This document shows positions 55,453-60,436 of a DNA stretch of 64,000 nt, piece by piece. The translations under genes were made by a program, and so were the position numbers. Below the pieces are notes generated by a model. It saw only the letters and a program-made list of their open reading frames with translations, ran no database searches and was not told the origin of the DNA. Each line of letters opens with the position of its first letter. The stretch's first letter is position 1. The stretch comes from Caldithrix abyssi DSM 13497 (GTDB lineage: Bacteria > Calditrichota > Calditrichia > Calditrichales > Calditrichaceae). The DNA lies in NCBI RefSeq assembly GCF_001886815.1, contig NZ_CP018099.1, positions 3,718,501 to 3,782,500 of the forward strand, written 5' to 3'.

Positions 55453-56351
55453 TAACTCTCCCTCTTTTCTGTGAAAGGGGGGAGTTCCTATGTAAAATCT
55501 TCCCCAAAACAACAATGTCCAGGTCTCTTTCACAATCTACCTCTTAATGGTCAAATCAGCTCTTCAGTTAAGTAAAATTTTTCTGGTTTGTTAGATTCCC
55601 AACTCACCTCCTCTAACTCCACCTATCTTCAACGAAGAGAGGGGGATGGGGGGTGAGTTCTTATGGAAAATCTTCCCCAAAACAACAATGTCCAGGTCTC
55701 TTTCACAATCTACCTCTTAATGGTCAAATCAGCTCTTCAGTTAAGTAAAATTTTTCTGGTTTGTTAGATTCCCAACTCAACCCCTCTAACTCCACCTATC
55801 TTCAACGAAGAGAGGGGGATGGGGGGTGAGTTCCTATGGAAAATCTTCCCCCAAACAACAATGTCCAGGCCTCTTTCACAATCTACCTCTTAATGGTCAA
55901 ATCAGCTCTTCAGTTAAGTAAAATTTTTCTGGTTTGTTAGATTCCCAACTCAACCCCTCTAACTCCACCTCTCTTCTGCGAAGAAAAGGGGATAGGGGGG
56001 AGTTCCTATGTAAAATCTTCCCCAAACAACAATGTCCAAGCCTCTTTCACAATCTACCTCTTAATGGTCAAATCAGTTCTTCAGTTAAGTAAAATTTTTC
56101 TGGTTTGTTAGATTCCCAACTCACCCCCTCTAACTCCACCTATCTTCAACGAAGAGAGGGGGATGGGGGGTGAGTTCTTATGGAAAATCTTCCCCCAAAC
56201 AACAATGTCCAGGTCCCTTTCGCAATCTACCTCTTAATGGTCAAATCAGCTCTTCAGTTAAGTAAAATTTTTCTGGTTTGTTAGGTTCCCAACTCACCCC
56301 CTCTAACTCCCCCTCTCTTCAACGAAGAGAGGGGGATGGGGGGTGAGTTCC
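55453..56351. repeat. Tandem array: six hairpins separated by five near-identical spacers (unit 171-173 bp)
   Basis: The marker AACAATGTCC occurs at 55511, 55684, 55857, 56028 and 56201, giving periods of 173, 173, 171 and 173 bp. Each unit has a ~110-bp spacer and a hairpin. The last hairpin (56290-56349) is the most perfect: AACTCACCCCC pairs with GGGGGTGAGTT, and inside it CCCCCTCTCTTC pairs with GAAGAGAGGGGG. A first hairpin lies at 55453-55488 before the first spacer. Each spacer holds the same 15-codon frame (MVKSALQLSKIFLVC; one copy has A to V) without a ribosome site. Related single hairpins lie at 56818-56872 and 60312-60362. Confidence 0.9.
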
Positions 56352-56366
56352 TTTGCTCAATCTGTC

Positions 56367-56725
56367 TTATTTCAAATATTCCTTAATTTTTTTAATTACT
56401 AAACCTAAATTTTCTTCTACTTCCTCATTTTTAAATCGAAGTACCTTAAGACCTTTAAGTTCCATTATCTCGGTGCGTATCTGATCATATTCCTTCTGTC
56501 TTAAATGAACTCCACCATCAATCTCAATTACCAATTTCTTTTCACTACAATAAAAATCCGCAAAAAAAAACTTTTTCTTCCATTTATTTCATATTGGATC
56601 GGATGTTGACGTAAAAATTTCTTCCCTTCCAGCCTTCGATTTCTCAAAGCTTCCCATAATATTAGCTCATATTTTGTTTGATTCTTCCGCAATTCCCGAA
56701 CGAATTGTTTAATTTGAGTTCTCAT
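56367..56725 (-). pseudogene. DUF559 endonuclease-like gene, frameshifted at a T9 tract
   Basis: The first 55 or so codons (LRKNQTKYELILWEALRNRR, FLRQHPIQYEINGRKSFF) match the start of DUF559 proteins, a restriction-endonuclease-like/Vsr-related fold. The frame then ends early (IFIVVKRNW). Adding one T to the nine-T run at about 56571 restores FADFYCSEKKLVIEIDGGVH...YDQIRTEIMELKGLKVLRF...KKIKEYLK, ending at 56367. This includes the DUF559 core (DFYC, IDGGVH, LRF.NEEV), about 119 residues in all. It sits 16 bp from the hairpin array. Confidence 0.8.
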
Positions 56726-56766
56726 TGTTTTGTGGTTTGTTTTTCAACTCACCCCCTCTAACTTCC

Positions 56767-56784
56767 GGGGCTTTCCCATAAGTC
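56767..56784. mobile_element. Possible solitary IS1182-type terminal repeat
   Basis: GGGGCTTTCCCATAAGTC resembles the terminal repeat of the IS at 29083 (GGGGCTGTCCCAAAAGTC; 3 differences in 18) and is likewise preceded by CCGG overlapping its first bases. It interrupts a CTCACCCCCTCTAACT hairpin-type sequence. No transposase or second end is seen here. Confidence 0.35.
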
Positions 56785-56909
56785 AAAGACAATGTATTTT
56801 TTTAAATTTTTTCTTTCTCTCACCCTCTTTAACTCCCTCTCTCCCGAAAATCGGCAGGGGGAGTTCCCTTGCCCGCTTTCCCTAAAAACTCAGGCAATTG
56901 CTTTTATAG

Positions 56910-60311: not shown

Positions 60312-60362
60312 CGCCCCTGATCCCTCTCTCTTCAACGAATAGAGGAGGATGGGCGAGAGTTC
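60312..60362. repeat. Isolated hairpin related to the tandem array
   Basis: CCCTCTCTCTTCAACGAATA followed by GAGGAGGATGGGCGAGAGTT is a diverged copy of the array hairpin (same TTCAACGAA loop). It lies between purB and purD in an otherwise gene-free 243-bp gap. Confidence 0.6.
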
Positions 60363-60436
60363 CTTACCCCAATCCTTCCAAAATCACCCCGTCAATTTCT
60401 CGCTCAAAATCTTCCATTTACTAGATCAACATGCGC

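Follow-up and report, generated by a model that had tools for sequence, protein, structure and literature searches.

Intrastrand-triplex repeats, now called TM and earlier PIT, have been described from more than 260 genomes, E. coli included (Holder et al. 2015, PMC4666352). These motifs are dispersed and intergenic and combine a C-rich arm, a G-rich arm and a mirror-like third arm; triplex formation in vitro was demonstrated for the E. coli motif only, and Holder et al. never found mobility genes around the TM repeats of E. coli (PMC4666352). A comparable set of small dispersed palindromes is formed by the REP/RAYT (TnpAREP) systems, known as REPtrons, BIMEs and REPINs, in which palindromes occur in tandem clusters, one small enzyme gene encoding a Y1/HuH transposase is flanked by palindromes, and enzyme and palindrome families co-vary. 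REP families carry GTAG (or CGTC) tags as defined in PMC3733652. On the enzyme side, the DUF559 protein YcjD of E. coli was earlier assigned to the PD-(D/E)XK superfamily (PMC1189080), and the Caulobacter DUF559 protein VsrA (CCNA_02930) causes an SOS/DNA damage response in cells lacking the methyltransferase ScmA and has been interpreted as a mismatch-repair enzyme that serves a methyltransferase (PMC12907096).

We analysed a stretch of 64,000 nucleotides from Caldithrix abyssi DSM 13497 (contig NZ_CP018099.1, positions 3,718,501 to 3,782,500; hereafter the window), in which a row of hairpins lies between purF and pyrC. In our view this array is probably the hairpin field of a decayed and locally amplified two-part selfish element, made up of a DUF559 nuclease gene between cognate C-rich hairpins of the TM/PIT type.

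Tandem Repeats Finder reported the array at window positions 55477-56352 with a period of 173, 5.1 copies and 94% matches, and reading of the sequence resolved it (55454-56349) into five full hairpins of 57-59 nt and one degenerate hairpin, separated by five spacers of 114 nt each. Starting from the pyrC end, the array comprises the degenerate hairpin (55454-55486), spacer 1 (55487-55600), hairpin 1 (55601-55659; 59 nt, imperfect inner stem), spacer 2 (55660-55773), hairpin 2 (55774-55832; 59 nt, imperfect), spacer 3 (55833-55946), hairpin 3 (55947-56003; 57 nt, the most diverged), spacer 4 (56004-56117), hairpin 4 (56118-56176; 59 nt, imperfect), spacer 5 (56177-56290) and hairpin 5 (56291-56349), which has a perfect 13-bp inner stem in addition to its outer stem. 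Spacers were mutually 92-98% identical and hairpins 83-98% identical, and one unit was 2 nt shorter than the others. Hairpin 5 folded at -44.7 and -46 kcal/mol on the two strands (z of -6.8 and -6.0 against shuffled sequence), while the inner hairpins tested folded more weakly (-26 to -28 kcal/mol, z -1.9 to -2.7), owing to inner-stem mismatches that they have in common. The initial annotation had counted six hairpins, which is correct if the degenerate one is included, and had reported single diverged hairpins elsewhere; these are present near 56818 and at 60321-60374, the latter, located between purD and purB, being a lone and diverged copy of the array hairpin. The genome-wide search for the unit that it had proposed returned five spacer copies, all of them in the array and none elsewhere. 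A CRISPR array was rejected, as the spacers are here the conserved part and do not differ from one another. A 15-codon frame in each spacer had been taken for a probable by-product of unit homogeneity, which nothing in our results contradicts and which our explanation does not need.

The 173-bp period exceeds early short reads, so that units could have been wrongly multiplied or collapsed during assembly. We give this explanation next to no weight, as the units differ from one another in both spacers and hairpins and in the length of one unit, the genome is a single contig of 4.98 Mb, and PCR closure was used to finish the assembly (PMC5317091).

The initial annotation had missed a DUF559 (PF04480) nuclease gene, which occupies 56367-56725 on the minus strand, between the array and purF. 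Hairpin 5, the array hairpin nearest to this gene, begins 17 bp past its stop codon. With its two reading frames joined the gene scored 111.1 bits to PF04480 against a curated cut-off of 20.6, and the frames taken singly scored 68.6 and 37.7 bits. One frameshift near a T run breaks the gene, which is thus either a pseudogene or a case of sequencing error; the catalytic-type motif IEIDGGVH is intact in its second half. On the 5' side of the gene we found the left half (AACTCACCCCCTCTAACTTCC, 56746-56766) of the hairpin seen at the array end, and this half-hairpin is fused to the left part of an abundant repeat of about 190 bp (GGGGCTTTCCCATAAGTCAAAG..., 56767-56868), which is joined in turn to the right arm of a hairpin (56855-56868). 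With this DUF559 neighbour, the amplified hairpin becomes an instance of a general nuclease-hairpin unit.

The array stops 29 bp short of the start codon of pyrC and is capable of strong folding. It had been proposed that it could act on the pyr operon as an attenuator, through DNA structure or as a source of small RNAs. Comparison with relatives speaks against this role. Four relatives share the purF-pyrC gene order, with gaps of 332 (G001), 127 (G002), 115 (G003) and 36 bp (G005) in comparison to 1485 bp in Caldithrix abyssi, and neither a DUF559 gene nor an array was found in any of these four gaps. The unit is thus specific to one lineage, which argues against a conserved regulator of pyr. 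An Rfam search of the array region returned nothing at E up to 0.1, and the other DUF559 arrays of the genome stand beside genes unrelated to pyr, leaving a pyr regulatory array as a very improbable explanation. The suggestion of recent local amplification, on the other hand, is borne out by spacers that are nearly identical and unique to the array and by relatives that share the gene order and lack the array. The window-type hairpin itself was dispersed in the DUF559-bearing relatives G001, G007 and G008 and rare or absent in several relatives without DUF559. Two copies of it lie about 170 bp apart in the sister species G002, which has no DUF559 match, on the contig that also carries pyrC and purF (L072, G002:C379:24115-24337). 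An unrelated triplex-type hairpin (GACCCCCCTCTTTCCCCCCTGACAGGGGGGAACTTAAAAGGGGGGTC) was seen in the purF-pyrC gap of a further relative (L239, G004).

Three DUF559 loci were found in the Caldithrix abyssi genome, namely the window gene, L031 and L032, and all three adjoin tandem hairpin arrays, each of its own sequence. The L031 gene is an intact DUF559 gene with hairpins on both sides in a tandem array of a sequence unlike that of the window array, and the four copies of its hairpin in the genome are all located at this gene. In L032 the DUF559 domain is part of a longer protein, and short C-rich hairpins stand in a row next to the locus.

The most abundant hairpin family of the genome travels in a different setting, inside the repeat of about 190 bp and not with a DUF559 gene. 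The ends of this repeat are inverted (GGGGCTGTCCCAAAAG / CTTTTGAGACACCCCC) and enclose a triplex-type hairpin at its centre. It occurs in at least 40 places (L002-L030) and is probably a MITE; the sequence at window 56767-56868 is a damaged copy of it. Its hairpin is also present, in other surroundings, in short tandem arrays with a period of 371-390 bp (G000:C1 2767415-2767810, 2848594-2849393 and 2862536-2862931). Additionally, an insertion element of about 2.3 kb encoding a DruA domain (PF14236) together with the DNA-binding domain of a Tn5-like transposase (PF14706) was situated exactly in the loops of abundant hairpins at five sites and in both orientations (G000:C1 near 433103, 518542, 2106442, 842103 and 2414822; L247-L251), flanked on each side by a 7-8-bp loop repeat (GATTTTC, GAAAATC, CCGAAATC). 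An IS110-family element (PF01548) splits a hairpin of the abundant type at G000:C1 1911101 (L252) and to the right of 842103 (L250).

The window hairpins share with TM/PIT repeats the C-rich arm, the G-rich arm and the mirror third arm, the window hairpin GAGAGGGGG-ATG-GGGGGTGAG being one mismatch from mirror symmetry. Among 208 DUF559-flanking hairpins, 105 had a mirror third arm matching at 8 of 9 positions or better, in comparison to 59 for a direct-repeat control (p 2e-6). The window hairpins differ from the described motifs in that their copies are tandem and that a DUF559 gene lies between hairpins here, whereas no mobility gene was reported near the TM/PIT motifs. The published TM repeat 9 of E. 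coli K-12 (1351204-1351239) is located between fabI and ycjD (1351407-1351760), whose product YcjD belongs to DUF559 (167 bits). Of 5426 E. coli genomes, 3365 carry ycjD, and the strains lacking it that were looked at showed no clean empty site, as an efflux operon fills the interval, an arrangement that has been read as operon loss (PMC12817139).

The association of DUF559 genes with hairpins was then surveyed across bacteria with genes chosen regardless of their flanks, drawn from 80 loci of named genomes of many phyla, from loci of 98 genomes and from 40 further loci. A generic hairpin score, set beforehand, placed strong hairpins within 250 bp on each side of 54 of 77 DUF559 genes in the first set in comparison to 5 of 400 neighbouring genes; the other sets gave 8 of 26 DUF559 genes, and 17 of 40 in comparison to 1 of 117 neighbouring genes. 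A stricter definition of C-rich hairpins, set after examples had been seen, placed them on both sides within 300 bp of 104 of 141 DUF559 genes (74%) and of 6 of 498 neighbouring genes (1.2%; odds ratio 230, p 2e-79). Terminators are an unlikely source of these hairpins, which stand on both sides of DUF559 genes and so rarely on both sides of their neighbours. Hairpin density was 7.9 per kb in the 100 bp next to the DUF559 domain and dropped to about 0.1 per kb at distances above 1 kb, and about a quarter of DUF559 genes lacked hairpins on one side or both. In one 2.6-Mb genome (G154) we counted fifteen DUF559 matches, many of them broken. No paper linking DUF559 with palindromes was found in a literature search whose coverage left out most subscription journals and preprints.

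Hairpins within a locus resembled each other more than hairpins of different loci did (0.77 versus 0.47; 0 of 2000 permutations), and DUF559 identity predicted hairpin similarity (Mantel r 0.53, and 0.51 after GC correction; 0 of 999), a correlation that may be due in part to shared host ancestry. In G027 the hairpin that flanks the DUF559 gene on both sides was dispersed about 128 times, with a count of 0 for the reversed control. Among 250 distant genomes, at least two exact TM-type hairpins (CCCTCTCCC...GGGAGAGGG) occurred in 21 of the 52 with DUF559 in comparison to 17 of the 198 without (p 3e-7).

These distributions bear on an explanation in which TM/PIT hairpins spread by other means and DUF559 genes are carried between them, the hairpins acting as insulation or as landing sites, so that the nuclease plays no part in dispersal. 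It is in keeping with genomes that are rich in TM-type hairpins and have no DUF559 match (G176, for example, with 103 copies), with the Caldithrix abyssi hairpin family that spreads inside a MITE-like repeat and with the use of hairpin loops as insertion sites by other elements. Landing sites, however, would require neither that the flanking hairpins of a locus match each other nor that they track DUF559 similarity, and genes of the related Vsr family, which are small nucleases too, had C-rich hairpins on both sides in 0 of 30 cases. We therefore hold passive carriage to be unlikely.

The spacing of the hairpins has to be weighed against a further explanation, in which they serve as operator or methylation sites of a Vsr-like repair or restriction-type enzyme that regulates or protects itself, with dispersed copies as by-products. 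The tight distances between hairpin and domain, with medians of about 47 bp upstream and 36 bp downstream, would suit such sites, as would the tie of Caulobacter VsrA to a cytosine methyltransferase (PMC12907096). An operator, however, needs neither hairpins on two sides, nor copies dispersed far from DUF559 genes, nor arrays of several units, and all three were observed; self-regulation or self-protection consequently appears to us a decidedly weak candidate.

The predicted structure of the DUF559 domain from a relative (L079; mean pLDDT 84) was closest to 3HRL of Neisseria (Z 16.5), followed by the homing endonuclease I-Bth0305I in its catalytic domain (Z 12.0) and by Vsr (Z 9.9), and the DUF559 sequence profile also finds 3HRL and I-Bth0305I. 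Invariant residues of the family are D, E-x-D-G and H, and by its modelled fold and conserved acidic residues DUF559 is classed as a Vsr-like PD-(D/E)XK nuclease. This predicted fold, together with the DNA damage provoked in vivo by VsrA, indicates that DUF559 proteins plausibly cut DNA in cells. There are also differences: VsrA was assigned to mismatch repair, Vsr genes lack the hairpins, and I-Bth0305I was described as a mobile-intron enzyme whereas DUF559 genes are free-standing between palindromes. Homing logic as in I-Bth0305I would suit a gene that lies between copies of its target.

The arrangement resembles REP/RAYT systems, in that palindromes are dispersed, clustered in tandem and placed on both sides of a single small enzyme gene with which they co-vary. 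The enzyme is here a PD-(D/E)XK nuclease (PF04480) in place of a Y1/HuH transposase, the palindromes have a third arm besides their C-rich and G-rich ones, and by reading no GTAG (or CGTC) tag was found beside the five window hairpins. As both enzyme class and palindromes differ, membership in REP/RAYT was rejected, while the likeness in working stands.

Some observations count against the two-part element that we favour, namely the DUF559 genes without hairpins on one or both sides, the TM-rich genomes without a DUF559 match, the abundant hairpin family housed in a MITE-like repeat and the L031 hairpin confined to its gene. On balance, the comparative evidence points to the following course of events for this element. 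The DUF559 nuclease would recognise its own hairpin, probably in an extruded, triplex or cruciform state, and would nick or break the DNA there. Repair by copying from a hairpin-bearing locus could then spread hairpins, sometimes together with the gene, in a homing-like manner, and repeated break repair or replication slippage at the hairpins adjacent to the gene may amplify hairpin and spacer in tandem. The Caldithrix abyssi copy would have entered the purF-pyrC gap and grown to six hairpins, after which the gene would have been lost to the frameshift and the 5' hairpin to another repeat. A more general proposal, which we advance tentatively and consider about evenly poised with a slight lean to doubt, is that DUF559 nucleases are the mobility enzymes of bacteria-wide TM/PIT-type palindromic repeats, cutting the cognate hairpin so that repair copying spreads hairpins and gene.

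If this proposal is true, DUF559 and its hairpins would constitute a second, independently evolved counterpart of REP-RAYT that is based on a PD-(D/E)XK enzyme, represented in E. coli by ycjD with the TM repeats. TM/PIT hairpins have been known from hundreds of bacterial genomes without an agent for their spread, and no role has been agreed on for the widespread DUF559 nucleases; should the two belong together, both puzzles would become directly testable in E. coli. The array in the window would show the remains of such a unit, a dead gene beside an amplified row of hairpins.
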